Shown here: positions 15,587-42,939 of the stretch, piece by piece | How positions within the stretch are numbered: the first letter of the stretch is position 1 | Layout: each line of letters starts with the position of its first letter | Virus record (IMG/VR): IMGVR_UViG_3300037833_000033 | Span: 1 to 64,000 of that record | DNA length: 64,000 bases | Source of the DNA: a virus | Direction: 5' to 3' (one strand) | Notes under the pieces: model-generated | Databases searched by the model: none | Seen by the model: the letters and a program-made list of their open reading frames with translations, nothing else | Told to the model about the DNA's origin: nothing | Made by a program: the position numbers and the translations under genes

Positions 15587-15952
15587 TCACCTCTTCTTCA
15601 CCTTCCTCTTGTCCCGCTGCTTTGCCCGCTCGGCCTCGTGGTCGAGGTAGGCTCGATCCATGGCGCCCAGCAGCCGCTTGAAGCGATCGAACGCATCGGG
15701 GTCGTCGATACCATGCCGGGCCGCGTAGCGGTCGATCGACGACCAGGGGATACGCCCTGCTCCGCCCATGGCTCCAAAGGGGCGGTCGGACGAGAGGTCG
15801 TTGAAGGCATCCCAGACCCACGCGAGATGCGGCCAGATTTCGGGCTGTTCGAGGAGGGCACGGGGCGGCTCGCCCTCCTCGGCTAGTTTCTGCAACCAGT
15901 CGAGTTTTTCGCCCCAGCGGAGGCGCCACTCTAAGCCGCTTGCGAGTTTCCC
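15587..15952 (-). CDS. Tail assembly chaperone, frameshifted T extension
   Basis: This frame is read only as an extension of the upstream chaperone by a -1 shift at 15946-15952, giving a fused product of about 255 residues. The extension runs LASGLEWRLRWGEKLDW to IPWSSIDRYAARHGI and DFDRF-like FDRFKRLLGAMD, ending in a basic tail. Its pattern (LLEQPEIWPHLAWVWDAFNDL) matches the gpT part of lambda-type GT chaperones, which bind the tape measure and recruit tail tube subunits. Confidence 0.8.
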   Translation of the reverse strand, partial: GKLASGLEWRLRWGEKLDWLQKLAEEGEPPRALLEQPEIWPHLAWVWDAFNDLSSDRPFGAMGGAGRIPWSSIDRYAARHGIDDPDAFDRFKRLLGAMDRAYLDHEAERAKQRDKRKVKKR

Positions 15953-16353
15953 TGGTCTGCCTCCAGGTCGGCCGCCTGGGCTTCGCCGACCGCGACGGCA
16001 GCCCAGATAACGGCATCGCGGAAGCGGCGGTATCGCGGATCGCTCAGGAGCTCGCGCGCCTTCTCCCGACTGAACGGGATCGAGCCGTCCTGGTCTTCGA
16101 AGTTCTCCCACCCGAGCAGCACGGTGGCGACGAGGCACTGGTTTGTGACGCGATCCTGCTCATCTGGATCGACACGACCGCCCTGACGCTTCGCGCGCGG
16201 CACGGCGTCCAACAGCTTGGTTTGCATGCGCCGGTAGTCAGCGTTGTTGATCCCCCGGACATGAAGGCGAAGGTCGCCCATTTCCGGAATGTCGCCGATC
16301 CAAGCGCCGGCCTCGATTTTCACCGCGTCGACGGTGATGTCATTGAGCTTCAT
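15931..16353 (-). CDS. Tail assembly chaperone (G-like)
   Basis: A 140-residue protein starting MKLNDITVDAVKIEAGAWI. It contains MRRMQ-like YRRMQTKLLDAVP and the conserved NQCLVATVLLGWENF and DPRYRRFRDAVIWAA segments typical of phage tail chaperones upstream of tape measures. It is produced alone or with the T extension through the GGGAAAC site five codons before its stop. It keeps the tape measure soluble during tail assembly. Confidence 0.85.
   Translation of the reverse strand: MKLNDITVDAVKIEAGAWIGDIPEMGDLRLHVRGINNADYRRMQTKLLDAVPRAKRQGGRVDPDEQDRVTNQCLVATVLLGWENFEDQDGSIPFSREKARELLSDPRYRRFRDAVIWAAVAVGEAQAADLEADQGNSQAA
15946..15952 (-). promoter_or_regulatory. -1 ribosomal slippery site GGGAAAC
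   Basis: On the coding strand the zero frame reads CAG-GGA-AAC, so the heptamer G-GGA-AAC has the X-XXY-YYZ form. The gpG frame stops at TAG 15931-15933, and the -1 frame continues to 15587. Lambda uses the related GGGAAAG for G to GT. Confidence 0.8.
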
Positions 16354-16378: not shown

Positions 16379-16448
16379 GCAGGGGCGGCACGTGATGAAT
16401 GGCTTTCACAACAACCTTGGCCGCCCCTGCTTCACGGCTCACGCCGTG
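16379..16448. ncRNA. 30-nt-loop stem-loop plus small hairpin, 3' of the Tnp-domain gene
   Basis: GCAGGGGCGGC (16379-16389) pairs perfectly with GCCGCCCCTGC (16420-16430) and encloses exactly 30 bases. A second hairpin, CACGGC-TCAC-GCCGTG (16433-16448), follows two bases later. The loop fits the same pattern as the four loops at 17266-17518 (minus strand: CA, N10, GA, N3, CC, N10, T), although the stem sequence is unrelated. It lies in the intergenic space just before the Tnp-domain gene stop at 16455. The RNA strand is not determined. Confidence 0.6.
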
Positions 16449-16454
16449 TCTCGA

Positions 16455-17555
16455 TTAGGTGGCGGGGGCGACACCGCTTCCAAGGGTTTCAATGGGCCTA
16501 TGGTCGCTCCCCGCCTTCCTCCACTCGCTCCAGAGCAAGCGAAGGAATCTCTTTTCCACATACCTCTGCGCCCGATTGTGCGCGTGGCCCTTCGTCTCGC
16601 CCCGCGGCATCTCGTATTCTTTCCTGGCGTCGTACACCGACTTCAGCGGCCCGCCCGCTTTGACGATGCACGCGCCCACGTTCCACATCACCGACCGGCG
16701 CGCCGGGCTATACCCATGCTCCAGCGCCGCCACCCCTGAGGTTCGTCGTTGGCGCCCATCCGGCATGACAGCGAGACCTAGGCGCTTCCACAACTTCGCA
16801 GGATTGCCGTAGCCGCCTAGATCCCCCGCCTCCCCGACGATCGCCGCGAGGCTGAGAAGCCCAACCCCACGGACGCTCTCGACCCATGTTGCGACGGGCA
16901 ACTCCTTCGCAAGCTTCGTGAGGCGTTTCTCGACTGCCTTCCTGTGGCGCTCGATCCCGTCGCGGGCTTCGACTAGGGGGAGCATCGCCGCGAGGGCGAT
17001 CTCCGCCATGGGGTGTTGCCCCTTTCCAAGAGCGGCGGAGTAGATAACATCGGCTTCCTTTTTATCCCCACCTTCGGCGAGGCGTCGGCACAAAGCCTTC
17101 GCCTGCAAGGTCAGGGACTTCTCCGCCCTGTGCCATGACTGGCGACGGCGCCACTGCTCTCGGATCTCGGCGATGGTGTTGGCGAGGGCGGCACGAACCC
17201 TTTGGAGATCATCACCCCATTGGCCGCCCTCGCCTTCCTGGTTGCCCAGGATCTTGGAATAGGGTGCGGCGGGCGACAGTTGTCGATGGGGATCCAGACG
17301 TTTACTGGTCGCCTCGCCGCTCGTGACGACAGTCCCCGATAGGGTGTCCTGACGGCCGTGGTCGTCACGAATTGGTGCGGCGGGCGACACATCTGCATCG
17401 GTGCCCACGAGGAGTTTGGTCGCCTCGCCGCGCGGGGACACACCCCGCATCTCTAACAATGGATCGGCGGGCGACAGATCTTGTTTGGGCATCGCCAGGA
17501 CAATGGTCGCCTCGCCGCGCTCGGATACACCGAGCATCTGAATGTCATCCCTCAC
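16455..17555 (-). CDS. IS110/IS116-type Tnp-domain protein without DEDD domain
   Basis: 366 residues from GTG 17553-17555, which overlaps the upstream stop. Residues ~1-100 are low-complexity repeats (GEAT...LSPAxP) encoded by the stem-loop array. Residues 118-215 are helical (VRAALANTIAEIREQWRRRQ). Residues 222-345 form a Transposase_20 domain: helix-hairpin-helix VRGVGLLSLAAIVGEAGDL, LWKRLGLAV, then RRTSG with Ser273 at the place of the IS110 catalytic serine, and HAHNRAQRYVEKRFLRLLW. The N-terminal DEDD RuvC-like domain of true IS110 transposases is absent, and no IS ends are seen. It looks like a fixed phage gene, possibly an RNA-guided or DNA-structure-binding factor; this is inference. 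Confidence 0.8.
   Translation of the reverse strand: MRDDIQMLGVSERGEATIVLAMPKQDLSPADPLLEMRGVSPRGEATKLLVGTDADVSPAAPIRDDHGRQDTLSGTVVTSGEATSKRLDPHRQLSPAAPYSKILGNQEGEGGQWGDDLQRVRAALANTIAEIREQWRRRQSWHRAEKSLTLQAKALCRRLAEGGDKKEADVIYSAALGKGQHPMAEIALAAMLPLVEARDGIERHRKAVEKRLTKLAKELPVATWVESVRGVGLLSLAAIVGEAGDLGGYGNPAKLWKRLGLAVMPDGRQRRTSGVAALEHGYSPARRSVMWNVGACIVKAGGPLKSVYDARKEYEMPRGETKGHAHNRAQRYVEKRFLRLLWSEWRKAGSDHRPIETLGSGVAPAT
17266..17535. ncRNA. Array of four 30-nt-loop stem-loops with interleaved small hairpins
   Basis: Stem-loops at 17266-17320, 17321-17370, 17377-17431 and 17465-17518 all close exactly 30 bases. Three use the arms GCGGCGGGCGAC / GTCGCCTCGCCGC (11-12 pairs with one bulge). The second uses an unrelated 10-bp stem TCGTGACGAC / GTCGTCACGA. 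Small hairpins follow the last two: GCGGGG-ACACA-CCCCGC (17432-17448) and GCTCGG-ATACA-CCGAGC (17519-17535). Loops share A1, G12, G13, C18, T29 and G30 (plus strand) and differ elsewhere. The array stays in frame with the Tnp-domain gene and may be both coding and structural. Strand is unknown. Confidence 0.65.
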
Positions 17556-18060
17556 GAGCGGCCTCCTGCAGTTCGCGCAGCCGCTCGTCCGTCAAAATCT
17601 CCTGCACCTTCCTGTTCGGTGGCACCGACTGCCCTATCAGCTGCAGCCACCGCGCCTTCACCGCCATGTCGCCGGCCTGTCGACTATAGAACTCCGCCGC
17701 CTCCGTGATGTCTTCTCGAGTGGCCTCGCCCAGGCGCTTGCCGCCTGGCAGGGGGAACATGAGGAGCGTCCCGCTCGCGAGCTGCACCACCCTCTCGGCG
17801 CCGGCCGCGGCGTCCGCGACCCGCTTCGCCGGCGGCGGGCTCCATACCGTCTTGCGCTCCGTCCTAACCTGCCCGCGAATGGCGTCGTAGCAAGCCTGGG
17901 CGATGAAGGGTTCGGTCAGAGCATCCCTGAGACTACGACTGCGACGCACGGCCTCCTCGAGCATTGCGGTCGCCACCTTCACGTTGCCCTCGCTGTCCTG
18001 CCAGGCGAGGCGGGCAGCCTCGGCGACGGGGTCCTTCTCCCTTTTCTCTGCCGCCGCCAT
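17545..18060 (-). CDS. Partner protein of the Tnp-domain gene, unknown function
   Basis: A 171-residue protein from ATG 18060, coupled to the gene before (TGATG) and the gene after (11-base overlap). It is helical. The N-terminal half carries AARLAWQDSEGNVKVATAMLEEAV and EPFIAQACYDAIRGQVRTER. The C-terminal half has AEFYSRQAGDMAVKARWLQLI and a final ILTDERLRELQEAA. I recall similar proteins beside Tnp-domain genes in other alphaproteobacterial phages, so a joint function is plausible; no biochemical role is known to me. Confidence 0.7.
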   Translation of the reverse strand: MAAAEKREKDPVAEAARLAWQDSEGNVKVATAMLEEAVRRSRSLRDALTEPFIAQACYDAIRGQVRTERKTVWSPPPAKRVADAAAGAERVVQLASGTLLMFPLPGGKRLGEATREDITEAAEFYSRQAGDMAVKARWLQLIGQSVPPNRKVQEILTDERLRELQEAAREG

Positions 18061-18749
18061 CACGCCCTCCCCGCCGCGGTCAGAAACGCCAGGATCTGCT
18101 TCAGCAGCATGCCCGAGAGACCCTCCCCGTCCCCGTCGATCGTGCTGCCCTCGCCTTCATGGGCGAGGAGCCGTGCCTTGACGGCGATTCCGTCGATCGT
18201 GCGGGCAGGCAGCTCGGCGATCTGGAGAGCGACCCTGTGTGCCTCCGCCTGGAGAGCGTCTGCCCGCTCCTCAGCCGCGGTGTAGCCGCTGTCGTGCTCG
18301 ACCTGCTTCTTCGCGGCGTCCCAGGCGTCCGACGCCTCCACGATCTCAAGTGCGCGGCGCAGAGCCCGGTCCCGGGCGTGCTGATTGAGGTAGCCCGAAG
18401 CCCGATAGCCCCGCAGCAGATCGATCTCGTCCTTGAAGTGCCAGGCGCGACGGCCTGCGGGATCGCGCCAGCGCGGCGGCGACAGCGGCTCAGGATCGCT
18501 CGGGTGCCACAACAGGACCTCGGGCATGGCAGGCTCGTGCTGCTGGCACCTCTTGTACGCCCGGTGCGCCTCGTCATCGGCTGCATCGCAGGCTAGCCTC
18601 AGCGCCTCCCAACGGTGGCCGAGGGCCTGAAGGGCAGCGTCGGAATCCGCGAGAGCGGCGAGCGCCGTTCCTGAAACGGTCCCGCCGAGAATTGCGGCGG
18701 CAGCGCCTGTGAAGGCAGAACGCCGGGTGATATGTGAATGGGTAGCCAT
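18060..18749 (-). CDS. Tat-signal protein of unknown function, first gene of the Tnp operon
   Basis: 229 residues from ATG 18749. The N-terminus HITRRSAFTGAAAAILGG is a twin-arginine-like signal followed by a hydrophobic stretch and an alanine-rich cleavage region. The rest is helical and charged (WHFKDEIDLLRGYRASGYL, ALEIVEASDAWDAAKKQVE, IDGIAVKARLLAHEG). The promoter at 18838-18866 faces it. It begins a three-gene coupled operon ending with the Tnp-domain protein. An exported or membrane-attached role is suggested by the signal; it is otherwise unknown. Confidence 0.7.
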   Translation of the reverse strand: MATHSHITRRSAFTGAAAAILGGTVSGTALAALADSDAALQALGHRWEALRLACDAADDEAHRAYKRCQQHEPAMPEVLLWHPSDPEPLSPPRWRDPAGRRAWHFKDEIDLLRGYRASGYLNQHARDRALRRALEIVEASDAWDAAKKQVEHDSGYTAAEERADALQAEAHRVALQIAELPARTIDGIAVKARLLAHEGEGSTIDGDGEGLSGMLLKQILAFLTAAGRA

Positions 18750-20862: not shown

Positions 20863-23343
20863 TTAAGCGGCCTCGAGAAGCACTGCCTCGTACTCGCGAT
20901 CAACGATCCATTCTTCACTGCGTACTACGGCCTGCCCGACAACTCCGTACCTCTCTGCGATCGCGTCTCGCAATTCAATCACAATAGGGGACCGTTCCGG
21001 GGCAAGGCGCTGATATAGTTTATGTGTGTCAGGTGATTTGCTCGCCGCAGCAGCATGAAAGAGCAGGACATTCGACACGCCGAACTCTAAGATATCTTGG
21101 GCGCCTTCCCCTAATATCTGCACGGCCTCATCGAAACGCCTCGCTCGCAATTTTTCGCTGGCAAGAGCGTTCCGCATGATCCTTCTGGTCTTCTCAAAGG
21201 GCGAGCGCGCAATCCCAGCAGTAAAATGCCCAACAGCCCGATCCACTTGTCCAGACTTAAGCCATATCATTCCTCGAATATGGAATGCGATCCAGTCATC
21301 CTCCGTCCGGGGCGCCACATGTACTAACAACTGTTCGGCCTCTCCAAAGCGCCCCAAAACTGTGAGCAGCGCTGCTTTTGCATTTCTTGCTGCTGCATAA
21401 TCAGACCACTGCTGCAAGACTGCACTGTAAGCATCAAGCGCGTCGCTATAATTGCCTAGGCGCTTCAGGATATTCGCTCGACCGAGTTTGCTTATCAGAT
21501 CAAATGGGAAGCGTTGCGTATTTGTGTCATAAAGCGACAAAGCTTTAGGAAAATCACCGCATTCCTTGACTACATTTGCAAACCCGTTGGCAACAAGAGG
21601 TTCATCAGGGAACATCGCACATGCGTGTGCGTATGCGTCCATTGCCCCCTGTAGGTCACCGAGATCTCGAAGTGACTCAGCTAAGCCACTGTAAGCGACC
21701 GATATATGAGGAAAATCTTTCTTGATAGCCGCATACTCGTCGCGAGCTAGTGTGTACTGACCCATCAGGCGGCGAACTTCGGCGCCGCCGCATCTAGCAA
21801 CACTGTCAGACGGGAACAATTCGACAATTCTTTGATACTCGGAAAGCGCTTCTTCCAAATTTCCCATTTTCCGAAGGACTGTAGCCCTACCGTTGAGCGC
21901 GACAACTTGATTACCAAACCGGTCAAGAACATGATCGTAAGCTGCGATCGCGGCGTCCATCTGGCCCAAATCCAGCAATACCGCTGCTCGGCCACAAGCC
22001 ACACTCGGCTCATCAGGAAATTTCTTTGCTGCTTGCTCATAAACAGCAAGAGCCTCCCTGAATCTCCACATATCTCGGAGAGTCTCTGCTGCTCCACGCC
22101 AAGCGAACACGACTTCCGCATGGCTTGAATGCTCATCAATTACACTCTGGAATGCTGAAAGCGCTTCAGATAGACGATTTTGTATGCGCAATATGCGCGC
22201 CCGCCCGTTCTTAGCAAAAACTACATCTCCGAGGGTCTCTGCAGTTTCCAGCTCCCTCGTGGCTTCATCGAGCCTAAAACATTGGATTAGTGCATCAGCA
22301 GCATGTCCGTGCGCCCATGCATCCTCCGGGTAAATATCGGCTGCACGCTGCGCCCATTCCAACTGTACTGAGTGCAGGCCAATTCGCTTTGCTTCCTGTG
22401 CCATGCGGCAGAGAGATTTGGCGGCGAACTCCGGCCCACTCTGCGAAAGCTGCGATACAACCAGTTCATCAGCAAACCGTTTCGCAAGCGTAATGTTGCC
22501 GTCGCGTAGGCGCTGCTTGATGACTTCCTGCTGCTGAATGGCACTCTCGAATGCTTGTCTGCTACCAATCTGCGGCTTCTCGCGCTTGTGGTTAAAGGCT
22601 CTTGAGTCGTATGTCTCTTGTTCGTATGCAACGTCGAAAGTTGCTCTAGATTTGGCTTGTAAAAATTTCTGAGTCCAAGCCGATATTATCGGCCTATGGT
22701 TTGGAAGGTCCCGCAAACGCTTGTAACATTCGAATACAGCGAGGTTTGTCTGTTGTGTTCCTTCGCCCGCCTCGACCAAAACCATAAAAGCGCCCCTATT
22801 GATACAGTGCTCTAGGAACGCTTGTCGTTGCTCCTGTGTGTCGAATAGTTCGTCCGGTATGAGGCCCCACGCGTCATGATACCTTGCAATTGTCGCCTGG
22901 CTCTTGAGGAGGCTCTCAAAAATTCCCCGCAAGTGTTCATATTCAACAAAGTAGTTAGATGATCTTATAATTAGGTCCGGGTTTGGCAACGGCGCCCAAG
23001 CAAACTGACTTTTGACGCTCTTTCGAACTTCGCTATCCTCCAAGAGTGGCTCTAAGTACAGAGCCGCCTCTTGTCTTGTTTCCGGATATTCCTCAGTGTC
23101 GAGCACAATCAGTGCCAATCGGGTGGCTCTATCCGTTGACCATGCCTGATTAAGAGCCTTCTCGACCGCCTGCCGGCTTGTTGATTTGACGGCTAGCAAA
23201 TCGCTGCAGCCAACGAAAATTCGATGCAAGGCAGCAAAGGAGGACGGCTCCCACGCCTGGCGAGAGCTGGACCGCATAAGCGAGACGCTATTGCCTTCAA
23301 TAATAGCCGCCACGCCTGCCTGCCCAGAGACAAGCGCATCCAT
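20863..23343 (-). CDS. Large tetratricopeptide repeat protein, candidate defence or toxin-immunity component
   Basis: 826 residues. The first ~270 residues form an unrecognised helical domain. From about residue 290 onward there are at least ten TPR units with the usual W/L-G-Y-A-F-A-P spacing (for example ALAVYEQAAKKFPDEPSVACGRA and ALSEYQRIVELFPSD). It is translationally coupled to the zinc-ribbon gene (TAATG). Base composition is clearly less GC-rich than the phage structural genes, which points to separate acquisition. TPR arrays usually mediate protein recognition; a sensing role in a two-gene defence module is inference from pairing and location. Confidence 0.75.
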   Translation of the reverse strand: MDALVSGQAGVAAIIEGNSVSLMRSSSRQAWEPSSFAALHRIFVGCSDLLAVKSTSRQAVEKALNQAWSTDRATRLALIVLDTEEYPETRQEAALYLEPLLEDSEVRKSVKSQFAWAPLPNPDLIIRSSNYFVEYEHLRGIFESLLKSQATIARYHDAWGLIPDELFDTQEQRQAFLEHCINRGAFMVLVEAGEGTQQTNLAVFECYKRLRDLPNHRPIISAWTQKFLQAKSRATFDVAYEQETYDSRAFNHKREKPQIGSRQAFESAIQQQEVIKQRLRDGNITLAKRFADELVVSQLSQSGPEFAAKSLCRMAQEAKRIGLHSVQLEWAQRAADIYPEDAWAHGHAADALIQCFRLDEATRELETAETLGDVVFAKNGRARILRIQNRLSEALSAFQSVIDEHSSHAEVVFAWRGAAETLRDMWRFREALAVYEQAAKKFPDEPSVACGRAAVLLDLGQMDAAIAAYDHVLDRFGNQVVALNGRATVLRKMGNLEEALSEYQRIVELFPSDSVARCGGAEVRRLMGQYTLARDEYAAIKKDFPHISVAYSGLAESLRDLGDLQGAMDAYAHACAMFPDEPLVANGFANVVKECGDFPKALSLYDTNTQRFPFDLISKLGRANILKRLGNYSDALDAYSAVLQQWSDYAAARNAKAALLTVLGRFGEAEQLLVHVAPRTEDDWIAFHIRGMIWLKSGQVDRAVGHFTAGIARSPFEKTRRIMRNALASEKLRARRFDEAVQILGEGAQDILEFGVSNVLLFHAAAASKSPDTHKLYQRLAPERSPIVIELRDAIAERYGVVGQAVVRSEEWIVDREYEAVLLEAA

Positions 23344-32970: not shown

Positions 32971-33059
32971 CGGCCCGGGCGCCGCTGCCCTTCCAGGCGC
33001 GCGGCCGTGATCGCCCGGGCCGTGGGCGCCGAGCGAAAGAGTGGCAGGCGGTGGCCTGC
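32971..33059. other. Stem-loop with 30-nt loop followed by a small hairpin
   Basis: CGGCCCGGGCG (32971-32981) pairs perfectly with CGCCCGGGCCG (33012-33022) across exactly 30 bases. GCAGGC-GGTG-GCCTGC (33044-33059) follows. It lies between the MuF and scaffold genes. The geometry matches the array near the Tnp-domain gene, but the loop does not fit its consensus. Confidence 0.4.
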
Positions 33060-40052: not shown

Positions 40053-40233
40053 GAAGTGTTGAAGTGTTGCGCTAGAGGCTAAGCCATTGACGGACAAGCC
40101 GAATTGGCGCAACACTTGCGCAACAGATGCGGGGGCGGCAACACACCGAAGTGTGACCCCAATTTTCGCGCGCAACACTTCGGTCTGTTGCCGCCACACT
40201 TCTGTGGCGTGAAGTGTTGCGGGATGTGTGGCG
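40053..40233. repeat. Iteron region with GAAGTGTTGCG repeats, candidate replication origin
   Basis: GAAGTGTTG or its complement occurs at 40053, 40061, 40107 (complement), 40170 (complement) and 40211. Related GCGCAAC lies at 40118, and dyads at CACACCGAAGTGTG (40142-40155) and GCCACACTTCTGTGGC (40193-40208). The stretch 39888-40248 holds no convincing gene. It lies immediately 3' of a primase-helicase gene, the place where P4-like replicons carry their origin repeats. An operator role is the alternative. Confidence 0.65.
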
Positions 40234-40248: not shown

Positions 40249-42939
40249 TTAGAATCGTGGTTTCGCATCGCGCAGACCTCCCTGCCGAAGCGGAGCTTTC
40301 TCCTCCCCACTTCCCGCCCCCTTCTCCGAGCGGCGGTTCACGCCCTCCTGGGTCTGCGCAAGGCCTGCGCAGCCGTTCTTGAGGGGGGCGTCAGAGTGCT
40401 CCTGCCAATAACGAAGGCCTGCGCTCGTCAGCCTGATCCCCGTCACGAAGCGCTCGCCTGCATGCCCCTGATAGCCGTCCACGTCGGCCCAAGGCGCCAC
40501 GGAGCGGAGGAGAGGCGTGAACTTGTGGGCGCCGAGCGCGCGCGCGTCATGCCCCTGCTCCTCAAGCTGCCAGCCGTTGAAGGAGCAGCGAAGGTCCTTG
40601 CGCGACACCATGGATTCAGGGTCGGGCTGTACGGCGACGCGCGCCCAGGCCGAGATCGGGCTGTTGTCGTCCTTGAAGCGGTCGATCGCCTGCAGGATGC
40701 TTGCCGGCAGGAGGTAGCGGCCGCGGGCGCGCAGGCGGTCCAGGCCCTCGATCGCCCAGTTCAGGATGCCGGGCCCCTCGAGCTCGACCAGCGTCTCCGC
40801 GAGGCCCGCGGTGCCCGTGACTCCCAGCTCCCGCCTGAGCTCTTCGACCTGGTGCTCCTCAACGACGTTCGTCATGTCGATCACGATGGAGCGGTTGTAG
40901 ATCGCCTCCGTGGCGTCCCGGGCCCGCGGCATGACGTTCGTGGTCAGGAGGACGGGAATCTCGAAGGAGGTTCGCAAATAGGTCCGGCCCTTCCGGTTCA
41001 CGTCGAGCGGCTCGCCCGTCACCACGTTCTTGAAGCGGGCGCCGTCGATTTCGTCGTTCTCGTTCACGGCGTCGTCGCGGACCCAGGCGCGCGCGCCATG
41101 CAGGGTCTGGAGGCCGAACTCCTTCGAGATGTCGACGATGGAAGGGGAAGCGATTGGGTCGCCGATCAGCCGCCGCAGGATCGTGGCGAGCTGCGTCTTG
41201 CCGGTCCGAGAGGGGCCTTTGAGAAACAAGGCTTTCCGCTGCTCGCGCGCGAGCACCCGGATCGCCAGGGCGGCACCGAAGCACTCCTGGATCACGGCGA
41301 CGATCTCGCGGCGCTCGAGGTCCGAGCGGTCCCTGAAGCAGATCTCCAGGAAGCGCAGGGTGCGGGGACATTGAGCCCCGGCCTCGAACGACACGCCGAC
41401 CTTGCTGCGCGCGAAGTGGGACGGATCGTGAGGAGAGAAGGCTCGGGACCGGAGGTCGACCATGCCGTTGCCGGCCGCGATCACGTCGCCGCCGTTCCAC
41501 CGCACCTCGCGGAGGTAGAGGTCGGGATGCTCGTTCAGCCGCTTCCAGGCTGCGTTCGCGACCTTGCTGTCGCCAGCGCGCCCCATGGCGTCGCAGCCGC
41601 GCTGCACGAGCGTGCGCAGCCATTGCTCGTCGGAGGGCGACAGGGCGGTCCAGACCCCGTCGCGGTACATCCAGATCTCGCCCTCGGCGAGCAGGATGTC
41701 GCCGCCGTCCCGGCGGATCGTTTCGACCACCCCGTCGGCGACGATCACCGGGATGGCGTCGGGGGAGGAGGTTTCTTTCTTGACCTTCTTCTTGCGCCTC
41801 TCCTCGAGGTGCACCACGGTGCCGGTGCCGGTGGCAAAAACAGAAGAGGCTGAAGCAGCAGAGGCCTCCCCCGCCTCTCCGTGCACGGTCTCGTCGCCAC
41901 GGTGCGCTCGCGTCACCTCTCTGGGTTTTTGCGTGGGGTTCTTCCTCTGCCAGTCCTCGCACATCCGCCGGATGGCGCGCTCTTCGCGTGTCCAGTTCCA
42001 GTTGCGGCCGTCGGCGCCGGCTGCGGCACGGGTGGCAGCCAGGACGGTGTCGACCACCTGCTCCAGGCCTACCCCCTTCGTCAGCAGGGAGGCCGTCACC
42101 GAAAGCTGGGTAGAGTGAATGCTCGTCTCCCCCACCCCCTGATAGGCCATGGCGGAGAGACGCTGCTCGACGTCGATCGGCGGCTTGAAGCCGAGGCGGG
42201 CCGCCACCTCCAGGAAGGGGTTGGCAGCAACAGAAGGGGCGGAGAGGCCTTGGGCGCCCTCCTTAATTTTTCTTCTGACGACCGGTGAAACGTAGGAGAG
42301 CATCTCCTCGATCTCGCCAAGCTCGTAACGGGCATCCCAATGAGCGGAGAGGACCGCCACTTCCTTCCACGCCCCATCCTTCGTGTTGTGCGTGCCGGGG
42401 AGCCGCATCAGCGCCGCGGGATGGGCGACGGCGAGGTCGCCCCCCACCAGGTCGGCGAGGAGGCGAAGGGCGGCCTCGACGCGGGAGACAACCTCTTCAT
42501 TTGCCTCCAGCCCTTCGTTCAAGAGCCAGTACAGGTGCAGGCCGTTGCCGGAAGCAACCAGAACTGAAGGGGGCAAGGGGAGGGTGGAGACCTTCGCGGA
42601 GATCTCCTCGAGGGTGGCTTCGACACTCTTCAGGTCCACGTCGGCGTGGAGGAGGGAGATCTCCGAGACGTTCACCTTGCTCCTCGGCGAGCCTCCCGCC
42701 CTCTCCGGCCGGGCGTCGGGGCGGAGGGTGGAGACGCAGAAGAAGAGGCCCCGGTCCTTCCGATCCCATTTGCTGACGAACAGATCGACGGTCTCGAGAT
42801 CCCTCGTCTCGATGCGCTTCTCGCCCGGCTCCCGGTCCCGAGCGTCGGCATTGGCCAGCGACGACAGGTAGACAGGGTTCACCGTGCCGGGTCCGAAGAC
42901 CTGGCGGATGAAGGAGGCGGAGGCCGAGAGGGGTGGCAT
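40249..42939 (-). CDS. Primase-helicase, RepB-like primase plus SF3 helicase
   Basis: 896 residues. The N-terminal ~270 residues are an AEP-type primase: LLHADVDLK, SVLVASGNGLHLYWLL and AHPAALMRLPGTHNTK. The middle has an NWTREERAIRRMCEDWQ segment and a linker. The C-terminal half is a D5/DUF5906-type superfamily 3 helicase with Walker A LKGPSRTGKT (about 573-582), HGARAWVRDDAVNE and VLLTTNVMPRARD (sensor). It resembles the alpha protein of P4. It should unwind and prime phage DNA, probably at the adjacent repeats. Confidence 0.9.
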   Translation of the reverse strand: MPPLSASASFIRQVFGPGTVNPVYLSSLANADARDREPGEKRIETRDLETVDLFVSKWDRKDRGLFFCVSTLRPDARPERAGGSPRSKVNVSEISLLHADVDLKSVEATLEEISAKVSTLPLPPSVLVASGNGLHLYWLLNEGLEANEEVVSRVEAALRLLADLVGGDLAVAHPAALMRLPGTHNTKDGAWKEVAVLSAHWDARYELGEIEEMLSYVSPVVRRKIKEGAQGLSAPSVAANPFLEVAARLGFKPPIDVEQRLSAMAYQGVGETSIHSTQLSVTASLLTKGVGLEQVVDTVLAATRAAAGADGRNWNWTREERAIRRMCEDWQRKNPTQKPREVTRAHRGDETVHGEAGEASAASASSVFATGTGTVVHLEERRKKKVKKETSSPDAIPVIVADGVVETIRRDGGDILLAEGEIWMYRDGVWTALSPSDEQWLRTLVQRGCDAMGRAGDSKVANAAWKRLNEHPDLYLREVRWNGGDVIAAGNGMVDLRSRAFSPHDPSHFARSKVGVSFEAGAQCPRTLRFLEICFRDRSDLERREIVAVIQECFGAALAIRVLAREQRKALFLKGPSRTGKTQLATILRRLIGDPIASPSIVDISKEFGLQTLHGARAWVRDDAVNENDEIDGARFKNVVTGEPLDVNRKGRTYLRTSFEIPVLLTTNVMPRARDATEAIYNRSIVIDMTNVVEEHQVEELRRELGVTGTAGLAETLVELEGPGILNWAIEGLDRLRARGRYLLPASILQAIDRFKDDNSPISAWARVAVQPDPESMVSRKDLRCSFNGWQLEEQGHDARALGAHKFTPLLRSVAPWADVDGYQGHAGERFVTGIRLTSAGLRYWQEHSDAPLKNGCAGLAQTQEGVNRRSEKGAGSGEEKAPLRQGGLRDAKPRF

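Follow-up and report, generated by a model that had tools for sequence, protein, structure and literature searches.

Among the described RNA-guided systems, the stem-loop arrays of TIGR-TasA (e.g., that of a Peromyscus gut contig; Faure et al., 2025; PMC12045711) come closest to the locus analyzed here, which lies in a 64,000-nucleotide (nt) stretch of virus DNA (hereafter, the window; positions 1 to 64,000 of the 67,005-base IMG/VR record IMGVR_UViG_3300037833_000033) and consists of a tasA gene and a stem-loop array largely embedded in the tasA reading frame. According to the main text of that study, a box C (CCA), a box D (UG) and two 9-nt spacers are characteristic of the units of TasR systems, the stem-loop form of the array belongs to TasA, and arrays are placed upstream and downstream of tas genes. 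The spacers, A and B, pair with opposite strands at neighbouring positions, the gap between them being 0-2, such that the target reads A + gap + rc(B), where rc denotes the reverse complement. The genuine targets of TIGR-Tas and the role of the nuclease-free TasA are stated there by the discoverers to be unknown. The sequence evidence presented below indicates that the locus is probably a phage TIGR-TasA system whose stem-loop guides, carried in the tasA message, bind genes of rival phages without cutting them, the carrier's own copies of these genes being different.

As a member of TIGR-Tas, the system is of an already known kind. It departs from the published TIGR-TasA arrays, as far as the main text describes them, in the loop, which is 30 nt long throughout, in the 4-nt centre of the loop and in the location of most units within the tas frame; moreover, natural targets are proposed here, whereas genuine ones could not be identified in that study. 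With respect to the literature within reach, most subscription papers and all bioRxiv-only preprints being outside this scope, novelty lies in the embedded array and, above all, in the allele-tracking guides and their candidate natural targets. The dual-repeat TIGR arrays (TasR/TasH) resemble the locus in having CCA and YG boxes with two 9-nt spacers in each unit, the Nop fold and an A + rc(B) target arrangement in which the gap is 0-2. They differ in that their edge and loop repeats are constant through the array, unit-specific stems taking the place of the edge repeats here, and neither RuvC nor HNH is present in the protein of the locus. The IS110 transposases with bridge RNA (IS621, ISCro4) have a related Nop-type RNA-binding domain and split guides, whereas the locus lacks both a DEDD catalytic domain and a two-loop bridge RNA and contains no recognizable transposon. 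The Nop fold and guides located between box C and box D also recur in the box C/D small nucleolar ribonucleoproteins (Nop5, Nop56/58), but no K-turn or L7Ae is seen here and the expected target is DNA, not RNA. The type IV and V-M CRISPR systems of mobile elements would be comparable if rival elements are silenced without cutting; their proteins, guides and arrays are unrelated, and the likeness is one of analogy only.

Anatomy of the stem-loop units

Seven stem-loops, each with a loop of 30 nt, span positions 16379-17517 of the window on the minus strand, along which they are numbered:
17465-17517, minus strand: TIGR stem-loop unit 1, loop 17476-17505, spacers TTGTCCTGG / AACAAGATC, stem with a bulged A
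17378-17430, minus strand: TIGR stem-loop unit 2, loop 17389-17418, spacers AACTCCTCG / ATGCAGATG, stem with a bulged A
17321-17370, minus strand: TIGR stem-loop unit 3, loop 17331-17360, spacers CGGCCGTCA / ATCGGGGAC, perfect 10-bp stem
17267-17319, minus strand: TIGR stem-loop unit 4, loop 17278-17307, spacers GTAAACGTC / ATCGACAAC, stem with a bulged A
17181-17234, minus strand: TIGR stem-loop unit 5, loop 17193-17222, spacers ATGGGGTGA / AAGGGTTCG, perfect 12-bp stem (arms 17181-17192/17223-17234)
16461-16515, minus strand: TIGR stem-loop unit 6, loop 16473-16502, spacers TAGGCCCAT / TGGAAGCGG, 12-bp stem with one bulged A, at the 3' end of the tasA frame; target matches in tasA of other phages
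16379-16430, minus strand: TIGR stem-loop unit 7, loop 16390-16419, spacers AGGTTGTTG / TTCATCACG, perfect 11-bp stem, just beyond the tasA stop

A first-pass annotation, made from the letters of the window alone, had reported five of these stems, and all its coordinates, with loops of exactly 30 nt, were reproduced; it had overlooked units 5 and 6, the former with its perfect stem and the latter with its bulged A. The common sequence that it noted in three stems is also real and includes the bulged A (GGCG-A-GGCGAC/GTCGCCCGCC). Stems differ among the units of this single array, and in RNA folding all seven units form the stem, with z-scores of -2.1 to -4.4 relative to shuffled sequences. Another stem with a 30-nt loop, at 32971-33022, was dismissed as a chance occurrence, being distant from the gene and devoid of the boxes.

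Protein scans yielded relatives of the locus in 26 IMG/VR contigs, three bacterial genomes (Bosea vaviloviae, a Caulobacterales metagenome-assembled genome and Rhizobium esperanzae), Rhizobium phage RHph_X2_25 and more distant phages. Among the perfect stems of 8 bp or longer that lie no more than 1.5 kb from the gene in these relatives and the window, 89 enclose a 30-nt loop, whereas any other loop length from 10 to 60 is represented 0-15 times; the 30-nt geometry is not a product of chance. A more tolerant search detected 193 units near the gene, 159 of them distinct after removal of duplicate contigs (24 loci), compared with only a few dozen in total on the opposite strand and in the remaining sequence of the same contigs. 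Whole-contig scans likewise place the units on the gene strand (minus), with far fewer on the other strand or distant from the gene.

The profile of the 159 units reads CCA-N9-YG-NNNN-CCA-N9-YG, with the central NNNN often being AAAC, and both nine-position stretches between the boxes are void of information in the column profile. Stem positions 1-8 are paired in 144-159 of the 159 units by GC, CG, AT, TA and wobble pairs, that is, the stems covary. This consensus is in part imposed by the search, which fixed some box positions; however, the search set no requirement on the Y of the loop or on which bases pair in the stem, nor did it prescribe how long the empty stretches are or that they lack information. 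At three orthologous slots of close relatives, the stems are 56-82% identical (approximately 80% at two of the three) and the spacers 25-35%; therefore, the spacers turn over while the structure stays. Homologous loci keep the 30-nt loop and the loops differ between phages, the two comparisons that the first-pass annotation had called for. Its minus-strand pattern, CA-N10-G-R-N3-CC-N10-T, fits all seven units of the window, but the variable arm of the family is 9 nt between boxes rather than 10, and the R is not conserved across the family. By these features of its sequence, the array is of the stem-loop TIGR type described in the main text of Faure et al. (2025); Rfam and PADLOC returned nothing relevant.

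Several arrays of relatives are worth recording in their own right. The longest one seen, with 20 units, surrounds tasA in G022 (L081-L085). Mycobacterium phage Rich gp50 (L004:1978-3600) and Gordonia phage Morrissey gp42 (L005:1811-3660), both annotated as hypothetical proteins, are associated with stem-loop TIGR arrays of approximately 7 and 8 units, respectively, with 30-nt loops and stems of up to 21 bp, partly within the annotated gene. In Microcystis phage Mvi-JY20 (L006:3532-3830), a dual-repeat-like TIGR array (CCA-N9-YGCGAGCCA-N9-YG...) follows a tasA-like gene.

The TasA protein and the array within its frame

The array overlaps a gene with the following parts:
16455-17555, minus strand: tasA reading frame, 366 amino acids, GTG start at 17555, TAA stop at 16455-16457, containing units 1-6 and the Nop domain
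16458-17180, minus strand: Nop domain, comprising a coiled coil and an RNA-binding C-terminal part, without a nuclease domain

The protein matches the TasR structure 9MTY (the TasR entry of PMC12045711 in PDB) with an E-value of 6e-15 as a single sequence and 4.6e-17 as a family profile; TasH is also matched (2.5e-7). Among the NCBIfam models, TIGR_Tas scores 94.2 bits, just below its cut-off of 100, and the IS110 model reaches 46 bits, its cut-off being 140; in Pfam, there is no match to DEDD_Tnp_IS110. The AlphaFold model (mean predicted local distance difference test score, 87) is all-helical, with a coiled coil and a C-terminal RNA-binding part and no RuvC or HNH domain. Its fold ranks closest to TasR (template modelling score 0.67) and TasH, then to IS110 recombinases (about 0.5), followed by Nop5 and Prp31 with E-values at chance level. 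With no nuclease domain, the protein is therefore a TasA, the nuclease-free type, and not an IS110 transposase.

Three PHROG families named 'transposase' bear misleading labels: PHROG 513 matches a HExxH peptidase-like phage gene, and PHROG 4285 and 2199 match TasA. In otherwise dissimilar phages, 29-31 records share tasA, compared with no more than 8 for each of the other long genes tested, in a sample that was itself selected by tasA; such wide sharing is consistent with transfer of the locus from phage to phage.

Six of the seven units of the window lie within the tasA frame, and this layout recurs in relatives. The main text of Faure et al. (2025), figures and supplements being outside this scope, contains no mention that we could find of an array inside a tas frame. 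The immediate context of the start and of the downstream end is as follows:
17562-17567, minus strand: Shine-Dalgarno sequence AGGAGG of tasA, six bases upstream of the GTG at 17555
17545-18063, minus strand: upstream gene of unknown function, its stop overlapping the tasA start
15931-16353, minus strand: tail assembly chaperone, the downstream neighbour, outside the system

The overlap of the upstream gene with tasA makes translational coupling likely. A GTG with AGGAGG or GGAGG ahead of the array is also found in six relatives (G005, G008, G009, G010, L007 and L008), and the independent annotators of RHph_X2_25 and phage Rich have likewise chosen a start ahead of the hairpins. In another relative, L002, there is no start codon between the array and the conserved domain, and the frame remains open to the contig end; in G022, the open frame extends 1176 nt upstream of the conserved domain. 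Across the 18 loci with a frame reaching the array, the tasA frame contains 2 stops in total through the array, whereas the two alternative forward frames have 33 and 51. The array of some rhizobial phages lies only partly within the frame; given these cases and unit 7, which lies beyond the stop, the hairpins need no translation.

Candidate targets in other phages

Under the published target rule, and requiring exact matches to spacer positions 2-9 (8+8), 10 of 197 units match DNA of other phages, compared with 1.80 units for shuffled A/B pairs (standard deviation 1.17, maximum 5, 60 shuffles) and with 1, 2 and 1 units for three wrong geometries. In this test, each unit was barred from records fetched by its own pattern, and units rather than hits were counted, replicate hits inside one conserved gene not being independent events; chance would account for approximately two of the ten matching units. 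Results with spacer windows 1-8 and 3-10 are weaker than with 2-9. The lone mismatch of the 17/18 hits falls at the first position of the spacer in six of seven units, an observation made after the fact, which suggests that this position is perhaps not read. The general excess at the 17/18 level is modest, and neither the reverse geometry, rc(B)+A, nor same-strand A+B or B+A shows any excess. Together with spacer turnover, the excess of target matches over shuffled pairs lends good support to the proposal of the first-pass annotation that the phage carries a multi-guide RNA system in which the variable arms would act as guides.

The strongest single cases of candidate targets come from carriers G010 (two units), G008 and G007 and from unit 6 of the window. 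Searching whole contigs fetched through the guides of G008, G007 and window unit 6 with all other guides, we found that two adjacent, near-identical units of G010 match the same codons, LYGSINN, in a gene of PHROG 4287 (DNA ejection protein). The allele to which the first guide corresponds reads TACGGGTCGATCAACAAC (18/18, four phages), and that of the second reads TACGGCAGCATCAACAAC (17/18, two phages); the copy of G010 itself reads TATGGGAGCATCAACAAC, with 14 and 15 of 18 positions matching, as is also the case in two further virus records of the same genome. The first 18-mer occurs in 11 IMG/VR contigs, and in nine of them it lies at these DNA-ejection codons. The two guides thus fit two synonymous rival alleles, and G010 itself carries a third, poorly matched one. 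As a separate observation, G010 (L048-L050) and G011 (L074), both IMG/VR records of genome 2546826724, have identical TIGR units, and the same poorly matched allele is present in G010, G011 and a third record, G037, which lacks a tasA match.

In the IMG/VR scans, the G008 guide finds one phage gene (HExxH region, PHROG 513) in 19 of 40 contigs, with a gap of 1 throughout, and the G007 guide finds the tail sheath motif N[IV]TIFPEL, with 18/18 in two contigs and 17/18 in four; the tail sheath gene of G007 matches its own guide at 13/18. G007 does not contribute to the ten-unit count, as the scan with its own guide had supplied its best matches. Only four IMG/VR contigs contain the 17-mer of window unit 6, in every one of them within a tasA gene, and the tasA of the window itself matches this unit at 13/18. 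Between carriers, four 17/18 matches were detected, in tasA (twice), a tail sheath gene and a putative peptidase gene. Unit 7 of the window has four exact IMG/VR matches with a gap of 2, three of them in one tail-fibre-like gene of apparently unrelated phages; it was not accepted as having a target. Window unit 1 has no match in 289 genomes of one class, and a BLAST search of a phage collection with six guides of Rich and Morrissey gave no match, which, with such short targets being near the E-value limit, is not evidence of absence.

Proposed mechanism and its alternatives

We propose that the minus-strand tasA message carries the seven hairpins, six of them in frame, and that each hairpin would be excised to give a guide RNA in which two 9-nt spacers lie between box C (CCA) and box D (YG). 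A nuclease-free TasA dimer would hold the guide and bind double-stranded DNA, with spacers A and B pairing with opposite strands at adjacent positions. The spacers are predicted to aim at conserved codons in genes of competing phages, and the carrier would be spared by virtue of differences in its own copies at the target codons, mostly synonymous changes; binding without cutting could then block transcription or replication of the rival. The predicted target of window unit 6 is the tasA of competing carriers. As the guides are part of the transcript that encodes the effector, their excision would consume the effector message, which, we speculate, amounts to a built-in trade-off. It appears reasonably likely that the system is a weapon or exclusion device against rivals, in which guides, including those to synonymous alleles, are directed at conserved codons in the virion genes and tasA of those rivals, the carrier's own sites are recoded, and the in-frame array yields either protein or guides.

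Several observations weigh against this interpretation. Spacer positions 2-9 were chosen after the mismatch sites had been seen, partly on the same hits, and for approximately 95% of the units the DNA searched yielded no target. There is no excess of 17/18 matches in 80 rhizobial (16-3-like) phage loci, and the match of unit 6 to tasA, taken alone, has a shuffle frequency near 0.05 across all units. The low matches of the carriers' own copies are partly expected because average homologues also match at 14-15 of 18 positions. Furthermore, as TasA lacks a nuclease, the outcome of binding is something that we infer.

The main rival explanation, that TIGR-TasA regulates the phage's own genes or those of the host rather than acting on competing phages, seems unlikely to us, although it may hold for the many units without a target. 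Such binding-based regulation would come naturally to a nuclease-free TasA; moreover, most spacers have no known target, and host genomes were searched with four guides only. However, spacer matches in the carrier's own contig are not above those of shuffled pairs, the four guides have a single hit in the host genomes of two carriers, in an Asp-codon repeat of ftsK with the appearance of low complexity, and the targets identified are in other phages and differ from the carriers' own copies. A role of TasA in recombination or integration, on which Faure et al. (2025) speculate, would involve bending of DNA at guide-set sites. The location on a phage and the published structure, in which TasR bends the target by approximately 180 degrees, would accord with it, but the candidate targets are codons in tail sheath, DNA-ejection, tasA and putative peptidase genes of other phages and not attachment sites, making this role very improbable.

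The first-pass annotation had assigned the gene to the IS110 type, and a transposon with a multi-guide bridge RNA could account for the weak Transposase_20 match, the PHROG name 'transposase' and the common Nop-type domain. This assignment fails because the defining N-terminal catalytic domain (DEDD) is absent; in addition, the IS110 model score is far under the cut-off, TasR and TasH match first and are nearer in fold, and, in place of one two-loop bridge RNA, the locus has many units with a single loop each; no element ends are seen. We give such a transposon hardly any credence. Still more remote is the notion that the repeats are simply N-terminal repeats of the protein and the hairpins a by-product. 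Three units of the window do encode similar peptides (GEAT...SPA), and the frame is open; nevertheless, the stems covary at a constant 30-nt loop, unrelated stems keep the geometry, the bases between the boxes carry no information, and no conserved peptide of the unit region is seen across relatives. Conservation at the protein level, which the first-pass annotation had named as a possible source of the arms, fails as a full explanation, since some units are located outside reading frames, either downstream of the gene or, in rhizobial phages, upstream of it.

Elsewhere in the window, an intergenic region at 40054-40221 contains inverted copies of AAGTGTTG / CAACACTT, five copies with several 10-11 bp stems, and adjoins a primase/helicase-like gene (40249-42939); this cluster is perhaps an origin or operator region. 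Positions 20863-23343 encode an 826-amino-acid protein with tetratricopeptide-like repeats, as judged by eye.

The target matches of the TIGR-TasA guides name phages, genes and codons, which makes the question of natural targets directly testable, and laboratory tests are within reach because cultured actinobacteriophages (Mycobacterium phage Rich and Gordonia phage Morrissey) carry this type of locus. If the proposed reading is true, phages hold an RNA-guided, allele-tracking system against each other, in which self and rival would be told apart largely by synonymous codons, and the array within the frame of its effector would represent a new way of guide storage.
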